From Syntrophorhabdaceae bacterium (GTDB lineage: Bacteria; Desulfobacterota; Syntrophorhabdia; Syntrophorhabdales; Syntrophorhabdaceae): a DNA stretch of 57,811 bases. Under the pieces are notes generated by a model that saw only the letters and a program-made list of their open reading frames with translations, had not been told where the DNA came from and ran no database searches. The DNA lies in assembly GCA_036504895.1 (NCBI GenBank), contig DASXUJ010000097.1:1-57811 (forward strand), written 5' to 3'. The position numbers and the translations under genes are program-made. This document shows, piece after piece, positions 44,098 to 50,035 of the stretch (positions within the stretch are counted from its first letter, which is position 1; every line of letters starts with the position of its first letter).

Positions 44098-44586
44098 TTA
44101 CGCCTTCGCCACCTTCTTCTTTTCAGGGAAGAACTTCTTCATCACTGCGCTGTTGATGTTGAGAAAGACCCAAAGGACACAGAGAACAAAAAAGACGCCG
44201 GCAAACCGGATGGCAAGGGTGCTGAAGACCCACGTCATATTGTCTCTCGTGATCTTGACCGTAGTCTTGGCTCCTCCGTCCTTGAAGATGCCGATGGAGT
44301 GCCACTGGGCCCCGCCCTGGTCCTCAATGTACATCTGATCGCTCCAGTCACGGAACTTCTCGTCAGGATATTTGGCCATGGCGTCTTTGTAGAAGGCGAG
44401 GACCTTCTCGTAGGGAAGGTTGTATTCTATATAGATCGCCGTACTTTCGGTCTTGACGGTTGTGCCCCCCGGCAATAGCGGAGCATTCCAGGGCGGCTCG
44501 CCGCCCCCCCATGCCTGCAGCGAAAGGGGCGCCAGGACCAGACCGAACATAAGGCCTATAAAGATAGCAAAAATTGTTCTTTTCAT
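44098..44586 (-). CDS. Secreted-domain membrane protein, decarboxylase gamma-like
   Basis: The 162-residue product has a signal-type N-terminus (MKRTIFAIFIGLMFGLVLAPLSLQA). A soluble domain of about 90 residues follows, with YIEYNLPYEKVLAFYKDAMAKYPDEKF and HSIGIFKDGG. A single C-terminal membrane helix (STLAIRFAGVFFVLCVLWVFLNINS) leads into a Lys-rich tail (FFPEKKKVAKA). The helix plus basic cytoplasmic end resembles small gamma subunits (OadG/MmdD) of Na+-pumping decarboxylases. The gene directly follows the beta subunit by 14 bases. The periplasmic domain is not part of ordinary gamma subunits, so the assignment rests on context and may be wrong. Confidence 0.55.
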   Translation of the reverse strand: MKRTIFAIFIGLMFGLVLAPLSLQAWGGGEPPWNAPLLPGGTTVKTESTAIYIEYNLPYEKVLAFYKDAMAKYPDEKFRDWSDQMYIEDQGGAQWHSIGIFKDGGAKTTVKITRDNMTWVFSTLAIRFAGVFFVLCVLWVFLNINSAVMKKFFPEKKKVAKA

Positions 44587-44600
44587 ATGCGCGCCTCCTT

Positions 44601-45746
44601 CTACTCAAACATGGATATAAGCATGCCCGCCGCAGCCGGGGAACCGATCGATCCGGCGAGACAGGCAGCCATCGCGTGCATGAGCAGATAATTCTTCTTA
44701 TCGTACTGCTGACCCACCAGCTGAGAAAGCCTCGGAGCCATGGGAATGGCCGAAACACCGGAGTTACCGATGAGCGGGTTGATCTTGTTCTTTACCATCA
44801 GGTTGATGACCTTTACGGTGAGGATGCCGCCCGCGGTACAGACTACGAAGTCAAGAAGTCCAAGACCGAAAACCAGCATGGGCTTATAGGTGAGGAATAC
44901 ATGTGCCTGCATGGAGGCGCCCACGCTCAAGCCGAGGAAAATGGTGACGATGTCCATAAGAGGATTTGCCGCCGTGTCGGTAAGGCGTTTCACCACGCCG
45001 CTGACGCGCATGAGGTTACCGAACATGAGCATACCCATGAGGGGCATGACAGCCGGAACCATGAGGGCGATGATGCCGCCGCAGGTCAGGGGGAAGAGCA
45101 CTAATTCAGTGCGGGAGCACCTTCTCCCCACTTTCATTTTTATGAGTCGTTCCTTATCGCTCGTCATTAACCTCATGATGGGAGCCTGAATGATGGGTAC
45201 GAGAGACATGTAGGAATAGGCGGCCAGTGTGTTCGCACTCAGAAGATGGGGTGCGAGCTTTGCGGTAAGATAAATAGTGGTAGGACCGTCCGCCCCACCG
45301 ATGATGCCCACCGATGCCGCTTCTTTGATTGTGAAGCCGGCAAGGATCGTGCCGGTAAAGGTCACGAAGACGCCCAACTGTGCTCCAGCCCCGATAAGAA
45401 GCATCTTGGGGTTGGATATCATGGGCTCAAAATCCGTCATAGCCCCGAGGCCCAAAAATATGAGACAGGGGATTACCTCCCATAGTATGCCGTATTTATA
45501 AAAGAATTGAAGTAGCTCCGGGTGGCCGCTCTCGGTGTATCCGAAGAGGGGGGTATTCGGAAAATTGACCAGAAAGATCCCGAAGCCGATAGGCAGGAGA
45601 AGAAGAGGCTCGAAATCTTTTACAATCGCCATATAGAGAAAGAAGCACCCTATGGCCCACATTACCACGTGTTGCCAGGTCAAGCTGGGGAACCCCGTAG
45701 TCTTGAACGTGCCAACCAGCAAATCCCAAATCTCGTTAAAACTCAT
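44601..45746 (-). CDS. Sodium ion-translocating decarboxylase beta subunit
   Basis: ATG 45746 follows GGAGG at 6 bases. The 381-residue polytopic protein matches OadB/GcdB/MmdB: ILWEVIPCLIFLGLGAMTDFEPMISNPK (88-115), GIIGGADGPTTIYL with Asp153 as the Na+/H+ site, and the closing NPLIGNSGVSAIPMAPR with NYLLMHAMAACLAGSIGS. These subunits use decarboxylation of carboxybiotin to pump Na+ out. No biotin protein or carboxyltransferase alpha is nearby. In syntrophs the partner may be a glutaconyl- or methylmalonyl-CoA decarboxylase encoded elsewhere. The enzyme specificity cannot be read from beta. Expression is driven by a strong promoter with an operator just upstream. Confidence 0.92.
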   Translation of the reverse strand: MSFNEIWDLLVGTFKTTGFPSLTWQHVVMWAIGCFFLYMAIVKDFEPLLLLPIGFGIFLVNFPNTPLFGYTESGHPELLQFFYKYGILWEVIPCLIFLGLGAMTDFEPMISNPKMLLIGAGAQLGVFVTFTGTILAGFTIKEAASVGIIGGADGPTTIYLTAKLAPHLLSANTLAAYSYMSLVPIIQAPIMRLMTSDKERLIKMKVGRRCSRTELVLFPLTCGGIIALMVPAVMPLMGMLMFGNLMRVSGVVKRLTDTAANPLMDIVTIFLGLSVGASMQAHVFLTYKPMLVFGLGLLDFVVCTAGGILTVKVINLMVKNKINPLIGNSGVSAIPMAPRLSQLVGQQYDKKNYLLMHAMAACLAGSIGSPAAAGMLISMFE

Positions 45747-46173
45747 CAATAACCTCCTTCAGTATGACTTCCATAAAATATCCCCGCTCGAAGAGCCTCC
45801 CGGCCGGACCGGAACAAACCCCTTCGCGCAGGGCTTTGGACGAGTGCCCGACCCCTTGCAAACTAATGAAAAATTTCACTTGGCTATTACATTTACGATA
45901 TATTATTCCGAGAAACATGTCAACTTCTTATTTAAATAATTTGTACACAAATTACGCACTTCTTTGTTTCTTAGCGAATTTTCACATGAAATGCAAGCAA
46001 AATCACGACCGCTTCGTAACTCGCCCGAAAAGCCCTTCGCCATCTCTCACCGAAAAAATTTGGGGTACAAAGATATTCAAGCCGTGAGAGCACATTTTTC
46101 ACTTGCCGGCCCGGCCTCATGCGTATCCAAGGGCCGCGCCATTCATTGGAGAACCCCTGGCCCCGGTTTATGA
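45747..46173. other. AT-rich upstream region of the decarboxylase operon
   Basis: The 427-base gap carries the promoter and palindrome described separately (45895-45954). The rest, including about 46000-46173, shows no convincing gene or RNA. Open frames here have no ribosome site or family likeness. Confidence 0.5.
45895..45954 (-). promoter_or_regulatory. Decarboxylase operon promoter with 8-2-8 operator
   Basis: On the minus strand TTGACA (45923-45918) is 17 bases from TATCGT (45900-45895). Thirteen bases upstream of the -35 is the perfect inverted repeat TAATTTGT-AC-ACAAATTA (45937-45954). Such TTGTnnACAA symmetry is seen for GntR/FCD-type and other wHTH regulators. The predicted leader is about 145 bases. 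Confidence 0.6.
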
Positions 46174-46629
46174 TTGAAGGCCCTTGCCATCTGTGATAGG
46201 ATGGTGCATGTCAAACCGCCGCCACAAAAGGATTGCGGGTCCTCTTATTTGCTCCCCCTCCTCCTGCAAAGCTGTGGCACTGGAAAATACGTGAGCGCCT
46301 GGGTACGGCCCCGGCTCCTCCGGGATCTGTTCATTTTCTGGTTCGTAATTCTTCTGGTTATACTCGTCTGGAGGCATACCATGGCAGTCACGGGAATTCT
46401 CGTGGCAGCATATTTAATTCGATATCTCCTCTGGCCCGATAGGGAAGATCATGTATATTATGTGGCAGGGGCAATAATCGGCTCCGTGACCGAAATAGCG
46501 GCCACCACTGCGGGTGTCTGGAGTTATACCCTGCCTTCCTTTTTCAATATTCCCATATGGCTCCCTTTTGCGTGGGGCTTTGCGGTGGTTCTCATTATAA
46601 GGATTGCTCAGTCCCTCGCACGGGAATGA
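46174..46629 (+). CDS. Small integral membrane protein, unknown function
   Basis: The open frame gives up to 151 residues, but the N-terminal 35 look non-protein-like. Likely starts are GTG 46290 (VSAWVRPRLLRDLFIF) or ATG 46381, which has GGAGG 6 bases upstream and leaves 82 residues. Hydrophobic segments are LFIFWFVILLVILVW, ILVAAYLIRYLLW, YYVAGAIIGSVTEIAATTAGVW and LPFAWGFAVVLIIRIA. The stretch GSVTEIAATTAGVWSYTLPSFFNIPIWLPFAWG is strongly patterned like a conserved membrane family I cannot name. It converges with the HdrD-TVP38 gene. Confidence 0.5.
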   Translation: MKALAICDRMVHVKPPPQKDCGSSYLLPLLLQSCGTGKYVSAWVRPRLLRDLFIFWFVILLVILVWRHTMAVTGILVAAYLIRYLLWPDREDHVYYVAGAIIGSVTEIAATTAGVWSYTLPSFFNIPIWLPFAWGFAVVLIIRIAQSLARE

Positions 46630-46670: not shown

Positions 46671-48365
46671 TCAAGATCGATCGACGAAAAGTTTTCGAAC
46701 TATAGGCCTGAACGCGAAGGAGACCATGAAAGCCGCGGCCGCAACAGCCAGTCCCACTAAAAGACCTTTCACGTTTCCCCTTACCATATCAGTGAGCGAG
46801 CTGGCGAAGACCACATAGGCAACGCAGCCCGGGAGCATAAAGAAAAAGGTACACCAGAAATACCGGGTGAAAGGGATCGGAGTAATTCCGAAGAAATAAT
46901 TGAGTAGATTGAAGGGGAGGATGGGCACGAGCCTCGCGATTGCAACGGCTTTCCAGCCATGGGTGGCCACCATTTTTGTGAGGGATTCCCATTTCTCTTC
47001 CCCCCATCGTTTCCTCACCATATCACCTACCATGTACCGGGCGAGAAGGAATGAGACCGACGCCCCCAGTGTGGCCCCGGTGATTGAGAAGGCTACCCCC
47101 CACAGGGGTCCCCAGAGAATACCCGCCGCAAGAGACAATGGAATTGCAGGGATAAGAAGGACCGGGGCGAGGCAGTAGAGTCCTATGAAGACGGCCGGCG
47201 CAAGGATAGGATGATCGCTCAAAAAAACAAGTATCCCTTCAGGGCGAAAATATCCGGTGGATCTCAGCCACCACAGAAAACAAATCAGACACACAAGGAG
47301 AAAGGCCGTCAATAATCTGGGATTGAATATCTTTTCGCGTGAAGAGAGCAGGAGCCTTCCGGCCCATCCGGTCCCCGGCAGCCGGTTCTCGACAAGGGGA
47401 CTTATCCCCGGCAGCAACTCGAGGATGTGGCGCGCCTCCATGCCCTTCTCCATGAACCTCCCCCTACAACCCATGCAATACGTTACCAGGGTGTTAATTC
47501 CCGCCTCCCCTGCGATTCTCGCCGTAAATCTATCGGCGAGCCCGGGGTCCATGGCGGCCACGCCGCCTCCATGGCCGCAGCACATGGATCGAGGAGCTTC
47601 CGAGATCGACGGGCCCCCAAGGGATGAGAGGAGCCCCCCTGCCCCTTCCCGGACATCCTTCAGGCGCGACGCGCCGCATGGGTGGTGCAGATAGAGATGT
47701 CTGCTTCCGTCCCCGGAGGAATAACCGGCATGGCGGATCACGGTGAGGACGTGGTCCACCTGCACATCCTCAAGGGCGGCGGACAAAGTCTTTTGGCAGT
47801 TTACACAGCCCGTGATGATCCGTTTTACCTGCGCCTTATTGCAGGCCACGGAGACGGTGTCCCGCAATTCGGCCGCCCCAACCTCATCTCCGAGCTGGTA
47901 GAGAGGATCGCCGCAGCAATCGAGCGCCAACCCTACCCTCTCTCCCAGCGAGATTGCGAGAAAGTCACGCACCTGCCTTACAAGTCGCGGAGACGCCGCT
48001 GAAATGCCGCAGCCCGGCCAGAACAGGACCGGCAGAGGAGTGTAGTGCCGAAAGGGGAAACTGTGTCCGAGGGAGACGAAACTCCGGGCCTTGCGGAGTG
48101 CTCTTTCCTGAATTCCGCTGATCCGACCGGTCCTAACCATCCCGGCCTTTACCCTATAAAGCGCACGGGAGGGTGAGAGCCCTGAGGGACAATACTCATC
48201 GCAGACGCCGCAGTTCGCACAGAGGAAAAGATCCGTTCCGCCGCCCCTGATCACGCTACCGGGTGACCCGTATTGACCGAGAAAGGGGCACGCCCCCCGG
48301 CACACCCCGCAGTCACTGCAGGTTGTCTCAAAGGCTAACTCTCTGTCGGCCGCTTCATCCGTCAT
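46671..48365 (-). CDS. HdrD/GlpC-like iron-sulfur protein fused to a TVP38/TMEM64 membrane domain
   Basis: The 564-residue product starts with two ferredoxin-type motifs, CSDCGVCRGACP (16-27) and CANCGVCDEYCP (49-60). Two CCG cysteine-rich domains follow (LDCCGDPLYQLGD at 149-160 and SMCCGHGGG at 261-268, with CVNC and HHPCG between), as in HdrD, GlpC and LutA. From about 350 there are six or so membrane helices with the SNARE-associated/TVP38 signature ARLVPILPFNLLNYFFGIT (477-494). In E. coli the TVP38 proteins YdjX and YdjZ flank ydjY; here a YdjY-like gene overlaps the start by 4 bases. The fusion suggests that electrons or thiol/disulfide chemistry are delivered to a membrane transporter-like domain. 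The reaction is unknown. Confidence 0.85.
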   Translation of the reverse strand: MTDEAADRELAFETTCSDCGVCRGACPFLGQYGSPGSVIRGGGTDLFLCANCGVCDEYCPSGLSPSRALYRVKAGMVRTGRISGIQERALRKARSFVSLGHSFPFRHYTPLPVLFWPGCGISAASPRLVRQVRDFLAISLGERVGLALDCCGDPLYQLGDEVGAAELRDTVSVACNKAQVKRIITGCVNCQKTLSAALEDVQVDHVLTVIRHAGYSSGDGSRHLYLHHPCGASRLKDVREGAGGLLSSLGGPSISEAPRSMCCGHGGGVAAMDPGLADRFTARIAGEAGINTLVTYCMGCRGRFMEKGMEARHILELLPGISPLVENRLPGTGWAGRLLLSSREKIFNPRLLTAFLLVCLICFLWWLRSTGYFRPEGILVFLSDHPILAPAVFIGLYCLAPVLLIPAIPLSLAAGILWGPLWGVAFSITGATLGASVSFLLARYMVGDMVRKRWGEEKWESLTKMVATHGWKAVAIARLVPILPFNLLNYFFGITPIPFTRYFWCTFFFMLPGCVAYVVFASSLTDMVRGNVKGLLVGLAVAAAAFMVSFAFRPIVRKLFVDRS

Positions 48366-49033
48366 GCGGGCCTGTAGGTAAGGATGACTGGTTGGCTCTC
48401 AGATGCGGAAAGAAGCTCGGTATTCCCCTTGAATGAAGAATTGGGGCGCATGAAACGCCTGAACCCGCTGATCAGCGGGTATGCGGCATTGCTCGTGATG
48501 CCGACCCAACAGCTTTCGAGGCACATAATACACCCCGTGCCCTCTTCCCGGGCCGCTTTCCTGTTGCCTCCGAAGCGAATAACAAAATCTTTTCCCCCGG
48601 AATCACGAAAGATGCGGCCCAGCGGTATCTCATCCCCCACTCCAGGCAAGGAAGCGGTTACGATAAGCCGTTCCCCTGTAGTTGAACTGCCCTCCGATCC
48701 GGCCGCAAGGTCGTTACCCGGACGGGCGCCTATCTGCACCAGCCCGTCATGGAATGCAAGGGGCGTGCAGAAGGCCTTGAGGATCGCCTTGTCGGCGAGC
48801 TCCCCGTCTTTATATACGACACCCCAATGGGGATTGGCAGTGCCGAACCTCCTGCCGTTTGTTTCCGTGTAGATATGAAGGCTCTTTCCATCCCTGCCGG
48901 TTATCAGCGGCCGCTCTCTTGACGGAGCAGCCTTCTTATCATCGGCAAAGGGTTCCCCGTGGCCGGTTCCCGAAGGAATCGCCGCAAGCCAGATACCCCC
49001 CGCAACAATCCAGAGAAAAGTCCGGCGGTCCAT
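48362..49033 (-). CDS. YdjY-like exported cysteine-cluster protein with Tat-type signal
   Basis: The 223-residue product starts MDRRTFLWIVAGGIWLAAIPSG, an RRxFL twin-arginine signal that favours export of a folded, cofactor-bearing protein. The core NPHWGVVYKDGELADKAILKAFCTPLAFHDGLVQIGARPG and the cluster TGCIMCLESCWVGITSNAA resemble E. coli YdjY. Cys89, Cys168, Cys171 and Cys175 could bind an iron-sulfur cluster. E. coli ydjY lies between two TVP38-family genes and near the rhodanese gene ynjE; the same partners occur here. The gene follows the rhodanese by 8 bases. No biochemical function is established to my knowledge. Confidence 0.78.
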   Translation of the reverse strand: MDRRTFLWIVAGGIWLAAIPSGTGHGEPFADDKKAAPSRERPLITGRDGKSLHIYTETNGRRFGTANPHWGVVYKDGELADKAILKAFCTPLAFHDGLVQIGARPGNDLAAGSEGSSTTGERLIVTASLPGVGDEIPLGRIFRDSGGKDFVIRFGGNRKAAREEGTGCIMCLESCWVGITSNAAYPLISGFRRFMRPNSSFKGNTELLSASESQPVILTYRPA

Positions 49034-49041
49034 TAAACCTC

Positions 49042-49551
49042 TTACTTTGTCTTTTCCACCGGGTAATCGGCCTCACTCCATGCCTTTATGCCGCCCGGAT
49101 GGCGATAGACATTTTTGTATCCCAGCTTAAGAGCCCACATCGCACCGTTGTGGCTTCTCGTGCACTTGGTGAACCCGCAGTAGAATACGATCAATCTGTT
49201 TTTGTCGGGACCAAGGGTCTTTTCGAATTCCCCTTTGGTCTTGTCGTCGAGTTTGGTCACTTCAGGGATCGGAAATTCGAAATTGACCGCCCCCGGTATG
49301 TGCTGTTTCTTATAGCTGTCGGCATAGGGCATGGTATCTACGATAAGTATCTCTTTCTTCTCATCGATCCATTTCTTTAATTCGACTGTGGAGACTATCT
49401 TGTACCCTCCTCTTTCGACCTCTTTTGCGAAAGTTATGGCAACTTTTTCTTCGTCAAGCTCCTTCGTGCCCCATGCGGCGAATGAGGTGCCGGCGTACAG
49501 GACGAGCAGCGCGGCCGCTATCAGTGCACAAAACCTAACTTTCTTCTCCAT
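49042..49551 (-). CDS. Exported rhodanese-domain protein
   Basis: ATG 49551 has GGAGG 7 bases upstream. The 169-residue product begins with a Sec signal (MEKKVRFCALIAAALLVLYAGTSFA). One rhodanese domain follows with ILIVDTMPYADSYKKQHIPGAVNFEF. The active-site loop is YCGFTKCTRSHNGA, in which Cys125 is the persulfide-forming candidate. GYKNVYRHPGGIKAWSEADYP is the usual C-terminal end. It should act in the periplasm in sulfane-sulfur transfer or thiol exchange with its operon partners. The start overlaps the MauE-like gene by 17 bases. Confidence 0.88.
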   Translation of the reverse strand: MEKKVRFCALIAAALLVLYAGTSFAAWGTKELDEEKVAITFAKEVERGGYKIVSTVELKKWIDEKKEILIVDTMPYADSYKKQHIPGAVNFEFPIPEVTKLDDKTKGEFEKTLGPDKNRLIVFYCGFTKCTRSHNGAMWALKLGYKNVYRHPGGIKAWSEADYPVEKTK

Positions 49552-50035
49552 TCTTTATCCTCCTGTTCAGTATTCTATTCCACGCGGGGAGGCATATCCC
49601 CGGATTCAGACAACCTGCCGCGAAAAGAGATGCCGCCACACCCAATAAGATAAGATCCCGGTAAAATGCCCTTCTCAAGCCGTCGAGGGTGGCGATCTCG
49701 CCGGCGCCGAAGCAGCCGCAATCGATTATCATGTCGTTGAGCACGCCGTACCATAGCACCGCGACAAATAATCCGAGAAGACCGGTTATTACGGCCAGGC
49801 TTCCTTTCACATTGAAGATAAGGCCCACACCCGCCGCTGTTTCGAGGAGGGGAAGCCCGACCGCAACAATGGGCAATAGCTCTTCCGGCACGAGACCGTA
49901 TTGGGAAAGCAGCTTCGCGAAACCCTTGGGATCGAGAAGCTTAATCACTCCGCCGTATATAAAAAAGACTGCCAGGCCGAGGCGGAGGAACAGGCAAACC
50001 CATGGCAGTATCTTATATATGTTCGGTTTTTGCAT
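49535..50035 (-). CDS. MauE/DoxX-family membrane protein
   Basis: ATG 50035 has GGAG 7 bases upstream; earlier codons overlap the promoter. The 166-residue protein has four hydrophobic segments, with FLRLGLAVFFIYGGVIKLLDPKGFAKLLSQYGLVP and ETAAGVGLIFN as in DoxX/MauE proteins. MauE-type Cys106 and Cys108 lie in DCGCFGAG, plus two Cys near the end (GCLNPGICLP). MauE helps form disulfides in methylamine dehydrogenase; relatives are paired with thioredoxin-like or rhodanese proteins. Here it heads the four-gene redox operon and may shuttle thiols across the inner membrane. Confidence 0.83.
   Translation of the reverse strand: MQKPNIYKILPWVCLFLRLGLAVFFIYGGVIKLLDPKGFAKLLSQYGLVPEELLPIVAVGLPLLETAAGVGLIFNVKGSLAVITGLLGLFVAVLWYGVLNDMIIDCGCFGAGEIATLDGLRRAFYRDLILLGVAASLFAAGCLNPGICLPAWNRILNRRIKNGEES

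Follow-up and report, generated by a model that had tools for sequence, protein, structure and literature searches.

The window analyzed here is a 57,811-nucleotide stretch of a Syntrophorhabdaceae bacterium genome (contig DASXUJ010000097.1, assembly GCA_036504895.1), and an open reading frame (ORF) reading of it places four minus-strand genes at positions 46671-50035, all of them intact reading frames that overlap or abut one another. They encode a MauE/DoxX-family membrane protein, an exported rhodanese, a YdjY-domain protein, and an HdrD-like iron-sulfur protein fused to a TVP38/TMEM64 membrane domain. Reading frames and family matches agree on this four-gene module, which the original prediction had proposed from the sequence alone. 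The MauE and rhodanese genes overlap by 17 bp, the YdjY and fusion genes overlap by 4 bp, and only 8 bp separate the rhodanese from YdjY, so that co-translation of the four genes is likely. A promoter-like match upstream of them, at 50140-50112, is at chance level, with 2 such matches found in the promoter scan versus 2.5 expected, which leaves the one promoter of the original prediction putative. The features of the module are the following:

49535..50035, minus strand: MauE/DoxX-family membrane protein of 166 amino acids (PF07291, E 5.7e-24), with a GGAG-like ribosome-binding site upstream of the ATG at 50035
49706..49723, minus strand: DCGCFG motif of the MauE protein, in which DCGCF is invariant among 9 aligned MauE proteins, the window's included
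49042..49551, minus strand: exported rhodanese of 169 amino acids with a TsoB-type rhodanese domain (PF00581, E 5.4e-19) and a hydrophobic signal sequence in the translation
49162..49179, minus strand: CGFTKC active-site motif (CxxxxC) of the rhodanese, the cysteine version of the UxxxxU of TsoB
48362..49033, minus strand: YdjY-domain exported protein of 223 amino acids with an RR-type signal (NF040466, 84.2 bits, cut-off 50)
48509..48532, minus strand: CxxCxxxC of YdjY (C168, C171, C175), invariant in 35 of 35 sequences, E. coli YdjY among them
46671..48365, minus strand: HdrD-like/TVP38 fusion of 564 amino acids (PF02754 and PF09335), with the same architecture at about 80 other loci and an AlphaFold model
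47376..48365, minus strand: HdrD-like half of the fusion, with two 4Fe-4S motifs and two CCG motifs
46674..47330, minus strand: TVP38/TMEM64 (VTT, DedA superfamily) membrane half, with PF09335 at 46803-47153, all-helical in the AlphaFold model

Pfam recognizes both halves of the fusion, the CCG domain (PF02754) with an E-value of 9e-11 and the VTT/TVP38 domain (PF09335) with an E-value of 6e-26 and 91.7 bits, above the gathering score of 33.9, which makes the protein a member of the DedA/VTT (TVP38) family; the 4Fe-4S dicluster family PF13183 scores under its cut-off (E 1e-4). The HdrD-like half carries two 4Fe-4S motifs (C16, 19, 22, 26 and C49, 52, 55, 59) and two CCG motifs of five cysteines each in the pattern C..CC..CxxC (C119, 150, 151, 187, 190 and C230, 262, 263, 297, 300), and in an alignment of 58 sequences all 18 of these cluster cysteines are invariant. 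Structure prediction, which the original prediction had suggested, gave for the fusion as a single protein (as all AlphaFold models here are) a predicted local distance difference test (pLDDT) score of 88, and the N-terminal half of the model is LutA/EtfD/HdrB-like, matching LutA (Z 19.4), EtfD (Z 18.1 over 313 residues, the longest match), and HdrB (Z 17.5-17.8). Both five-cysteine motifs and fold matches of Z 17.5-18 thus place it in the HdrB/HdrD CCG superfamily; the GlpC, TfrB, and LdhH models also match, all under their cut-offs. The earlier assignment of an HdrD-type domain holds in this sense of motifs and fold but does not extend to the HdrD of an HdrED enzyme, as no HdrE-type cytochrome gene adjoins the fusion among the neighboring genes examined. 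While the fusion shares the CCG-type fold and the full set of cluster ligands with EtfD, HdrB, HdrD, and LutA, its membrane part is TVP38, rather than a heme b protein or none at all. The C-terminal half of NF045663 (diclust_near_Sec, a flavin adenine dinucleotide (FAD) disulfide reductase joined to an HdrD-like domain) matches the same HdrD-like half with an E-value of 1e-41, but there the partner domain is the FAD disulfide reductase and not TVP38, and the fusion scores far under the NF045663 cut-off.

Neither a histidine nor a cysteine pair is invariant in alignments of the TVP38 half, which excludes both a cytochrome and a dithiol relay here, and heme b in the membrane half can be ruled out by the missing histidine. 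From these alignments, the TVP38 half would be an anchor or else a path for a small molecule. In the window genome there are six VTT matches, the fused TVP38 among them.

A join of this kind could be produced by misassembly or by faulty gene calling, and the search for other HdrD-TVP38 fusions speaks to that. It yielded a set of 80 fusion loci, the best 80 of 295 encoding stretches from a scan of named genomes, a selection that favors close relatives. Most of them come from Thermodesulfobacteriota and Nitrospirota, a few bear other delta or proteobacterial names, and the isolates Desulfuromusa kysingii, Geomonas silvestris, and Geomesophilobacter sediminis are included. Genes in these neighborhoods were predicted simply by taking the longest ORF and were searched with hidden Markov models (HMMs) that we built from few seeds; in nearly all 80 loci the two domains share one ORF. 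Within the phylum, 14 of 297 genomes contain the fusion, counting one with a stop inside the match (G289) and one whose gene is cut by a contig edge (G042, nearly identical to G078, where the fusion is whole), and 4 further genomes have HdrD-like and TVP38 genes as neighbors. Because it recurs in many independent genomes, isolates included, the fusion is genuine rather than an assembly or gene-calling artifact and is not unique to this contig. A TAA lies within the fusion match of one Caldimicrobium genome (L082/L134), where the neighboring ArsS gene is split over two frames, possibly through decay or sequencing error. In a quick tree of the TVP38 domain with long branches, the window's fusion groups with those of Nitrospirota (Shimodaira-Hasegawa-like approximate likelihood ratio test support of 92, inside a group with 99) and apart from the fusions of its own family (L116 and L131), which suggests that it was acquired by transfer.

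Longer HdrD-like proteins of 807-895 amino acids also occur (L096:9914-12409, L073, L081, L085, L095, L118), several of them at loci that encode the MerB-like SaoL. The one tested, the 831-amino acid form of L096, has two tandem TVP38 domains, an echo of ydjX plus ydjZ.

The co-conservation of all four genes, as originally proposed, stands for the fusion with YdjY and with periplasmic rhodaneses but not for MauE: the 80 fusion loci include 46 with a rhodanese, 30 with YdjY, and only 8 with MauE, which is the loosest of the four members and lies outside the widely conserved core. YdjY is above its cut-off in 14 of the 297 phylum genomes, and 8 of those are among the 14 with the fusion (Fisher p 6e-9). 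Full or nearly full four-gene sets are present at L074, L098, and L131. The window's YdjY, single-copy in its genome, is named by the NCBIfam model NF040466 and not by Pfam, and the CxxCxxxC confirms its membership. Its predicted export by the twin-arginine translocation (Tat) system agrees with the RR-type signal of the window protein, but since the signals of many homologs are simply Sec-like and the E. coli protein resembles a lipoprotein, Tat export is not a trait of the family. No solved relatives of YdjY were found by sequence, and fold comparison returned nothing confident, the best match being to DUF371 (Z 5.7-5.8), which we do not trust. A second branch of YdjY adjoins unrelated genes (L145, L146, L147, L149, L169), so YdjY by itself does not define the module; the neighbors there resemble prenyltransferase/squalene-oxidase repeats and belong to a different system.

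Rhodaneses with the CGF(T/V)KC motif recur at L059, L060, L071, L074, L090, L098, L103, L104, and L131, and most MauE proteins adjoin a rhodanese of this type. The window's MauE is a clear member of PF07291, and no mau genes were seen in its immediate neighborhood, the part of the genome that was searched. At L121:11926-13413, a YdjY domain and rhodanese repeats are combined in a single 495-amino acid protein, whose rhodanese part scores 70 bits, under the cut-off, against ExtH of the selenite/tellurite reduction operon.

What is new here is the wider context of the fusion loci, a stronger one that the original prediction missed: ArsS ("arsenosugar") genes with TIGR04282 and TIGR04283, the MerB-like SaoL, SelD and YedF, and the Tso operons, where TVP38 accompanies a rhodanese-DsbD selenoprotein. 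By strict counts, ArsS is found at 13 of the 80 fusion loci, TIGR04282 at 10, and TIGR04283 at 12 (high-scoring matches only, a first-pass HMM figure of 26 loci having been inflated by other glycosyltransferases), with at least one of the three at 17; SaoL is found at 6, SelD at 7, and YedF at 12, and 30 loci have at least one of these six genes. ArsS is above its cut-off in 12 of the 14 fusion genomes compared with 86 of 297 (29%) overall (p 1e-5). It lies in the same cluster as the fusion at L074, L131, L116, L123, and L090. L116, which matches a genome of the window's genus, has in a row a rhodanese, a lipoprotein, the fusion, YdjY, a TIGR04169-like AhpD, and ArsS, and L131, from the window's family, has MauE-rhodanese adjoining ArsS-AhpD-YdjY-fusion, with TIGR04282 and TIGR04283 nearby. 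L060 contains a selenium-type operon. The window genome has ArsS and its AhpD-like TIGR04169 partner on contig 67 and a TIGR04283-TIGR04282-TVP38 operon on contig 112, not beside the module, whereas the relatives L131, L116, L074, and L090 have ArsS close by.

This association reaches beyond the fusion. Among 60 ArsS loci chosen away from fusions, 24 contain TVP38, 24 a TIGR04169-like gene, 21 TIGR04283, and 20 TIGR04282, whereas none of the four was found in 20 control stretches from elsewhere in the same genome set, which argues that TVP38 belongs to ArsS loci generally and that the fusion is one form of it. The ArsS locus (TIGR04167, TIGR04169, TIGR04282, TIGR04283, and TVP38) shares its neighborhood with the fusion in 13 loci, and L209 also has MauE and a rhodanese as the window module does, but TVP38 is usually unfused at ArsS loci. 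ArsS is a radical SAM enzyme that adenosylates arsenic in oxo-arsenosugar synthesis, according to work cited in PMC12159101.

TsoB is a rhodanese-DsbD selenoprotein with the motif UxxxxU (PMC13188914), and TVP38 adjoins it in at least 7 of the 10 Tso operons examined. The window's rhodanese aligns to positions 15-159 of the 572 in the TsoB model NF045694 (E 8e-32, 110 bits), far under the cut-off of 805 bits. Score and selenocysteine content rule out the window module as a Tso operon, with only the rhodanese part corresponding, and a full TsoB was not found in the window genome. The three-selenoprotein Tso operon is like the module in its rhodanese subtype, its membrane thiol-redox part, and the TVP38 next door, but TsoB combines the rhodanese, a DsbD-like domain, and UxxxxU in a single protein, whereas the module has a CxxxxC rhodanese, a separate MauE, and an HdrD-like domain fused to TVP38. 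Tso operons at L174-L182 have a TVP38 gene next to TsoB, and at L176 TsoC is directly beside the TVP38 gene.

The E. coli cluster cited in the original prediction is real: ydjX-ydjY-ydjZ-ynjA-ynjBCD-ynjE brings together TVP38 proteins, a rhodanese, and a YdjY whose CxxCxxxC is that of the window protein. Unlike the window module, it encodes TVP38 in two separate genes, includes an ABC transporter, and lacks an HdrD domain, MauE, and ArsS. YnjA was considered as a TIGR04169 homolog and rejected, as the TIGR04169-like model does not match it.

In the reading that we tentatively favor, and consider plausible if somewhat short of probable, the four genes together make up a thiol-redox module that works on both sides of the membrane, with TVP38 at its center. 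The module would serve the metabolism of a thiophilic element, whether arsenic, selenium, or sulfur, and would most likely be the arm, in membrane and periplasm, of an ArsS-type organo-metalloid pathway that has selenium ties. This reading starts from the gene order, the fusion, the invariant cysteine motifs, and the HdrB/EtfD-like fold, and from the linkage of relatives to ArsS, TIGR04282/TIGR04283, SaoL, and SelD/YedF, with TVP38 and the rhodanese type providing a further link to the Tso operon. Reported links of DedA proteins to indium efflux and to selenite (PMC8679861) also speak for it. In the periplasm, the CxxxxC rhodanese would act as a persulfide/dithiol relay kept reduced or oxidized by the CGCFG thiol site of MauE, the two together resembling TsoB acting with its own DsbD domain, and YdjY would bind the element via its three cysteines. 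TVP38 would then pass a thiol-bound or free species across the membrane. What arrives in the cytosol, be it a disulfide, a selenodisulfide, or a metalloid-thiolate adduct, would be reduced by the fused HdrD-like domain, which would hold two conventional and two non-cubane 4Fe-4S clusters, or the domain would work in reverse. The product would feed ArsS or a selenium pool, with uptake or export as the overall direction. We infer both the action on arsenic, selenium, or sulfur species and its direction; these species are candidates because they fit the thiols, the rhodaneses, the non-cubane clusters, and the ArsS/SelD/SaoL neighbors. The original proposal of electrons passing through TVP38 to a periplasmic sulfur or selenium carrier survives in its thiophilic substrate, which the several loci with SelD and YedF also fit, but the electron path itself is unlikely, since the TVP38 half lacks invariant residues by which a known cofactor might carry electrons.

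Several observations weigh against the link to an ArsS-type pathway. In the window, the module has no arsenic or selenium gene as a direct neighbor. Within the DNA examined, 50 of the 80 fusion loci have none of the six arsenic- and selenium-linked genes, and ArsS is above its cut-off in 0 of the 4 genomes where the HdrD-like and TVP38 genes are neighbors without being fused. The genome statistics given above ignore shared ancestry, and the ArsS activity that we found cited is from oxo-arsenosugar synthesis and not from these anaerobes.

If arsenic is incidental, the module might serve sulfur or selenium trafficking only: a persulfide or polysulfide/selenide shuttle would operate in the periplasm, with the rhodanese and YdjY delivering sulfur or selenium to TVP38 for reduction by the HdrD-like domain; this is the original idea minus electron flow through TVP38. 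The frequency of rhodaneses, SelD, and YedF at the fusion loci is consistent with such a shuttle, as are the selenium-type operon of L060 and the E. coli cluster, where ydjXYZ and ynjE occur together with no ArsS. However, ArsS, TIGR04282, and TIGR04283 equal the selenium genes in frequency, and TVP38 is tied to ArsS even where there is no rhodanese, so we regard this alternative as somewhat unlikely. The protein could instead transfer electrons as an EtfD/GlpC/LutA-type enzyme anchored in the membrane, its HdrD-like half linking a soluble partner to the quinone pool and TVP38 serving only as an anchor. EtfD being the longest fold match and the scores of the GlpC, TfrB, and LdhH models point in this direction, but without an invariant histidine for heme, with no recurring flavoprotein or electron-transferring flavoprotein gene in the conserved neighbor clusters, and with a mere anchor failing to explain why unfused TVP38 accompanies ArsS and TsoB, such an enzyme is quite unlikely.

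Relatives in the DedA family are undecaprenyl phosphate (UndP) or phospholipid flippases (PMC10127716), and if TVP38 moved a lipid or lipid carrier under the control of the fused Fe-S domain as a redox switch, TIGR04283-type glycosyltransferases that use this carrier to make, for instance, arsenolipids or glycolipids could account for the glycosyltransferase genes that adjoin TVP38 in many loci, the window genome included. The same work sets COG0398 proteins apart from the UndP-flippase subfamily, and two complete invariant CCG motifs would exceed the needs of a switch, which makes a gated flippase very unlikely.

Returning to the favored thiol-redox module, a more specific form of it, which we consider unlikely, is a redox-driven metalloid/chalcogen carrier: a DedA-family protein with a built-in Hdr-type non-cubane Fe-S reductase that would take thiol-bound arsenic or selenium from the three-cysteine periplasmic YdjY, carry it through the membrane, and reduce it for organo-metalloid synthesis. 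If true, this would be the first biochemical role of such a kind for the large TVP38 family, whose members are widespread but for the most part lack an explanation. Among the literature matches listed, none joins TVP38 to heterodisulfide reductase, arsenosugar, or YdjY. Three contexts (the HdrD fusion, ArsS loci, and Tso operons) tie TVP38 to thiol redox chemistry and to genes for arsenic or selenium, and in the fusion it has a catalytic partner that can be tested. Should the favored reading prove correct, the E. coli ydjXYZ-ynjE cluster would become easier to understand, the ArsS pathway of anaerobes would gain a membrane arm, and YdjY, for which neither a function nor a clear solved fold turned up in our searches, would acquire a concrete role.

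The genes around the fusion in the window are OadB/OadG-like genes, an unnamed membrane protein, YdjY, the rhodanese, MauE, and Dus. Downstream of the fusion, a convergent 151-amino acid membrane protein without a confident family match lies at 46174-46629 on the plus strand, and the beta subunit of a sodium-pump decarboxylase (PF03977) lies at 44098-45749 on the minus strand, with a weak gamma-like subunit downstream. Two further families without a Pfam or NCBIfam match accompany the fusion elsewhere: a membrane protein of about 150 amino acids with a WVWLxMRxN motif (L104:3107-3556 and relatives), found near YdjY in about 11 fusion loci, and an exported protein of about 280 amino acids, perhaps an outer-membrane barrel (L117:2522-3367 and relatives), found near the fusion in 14 loci.

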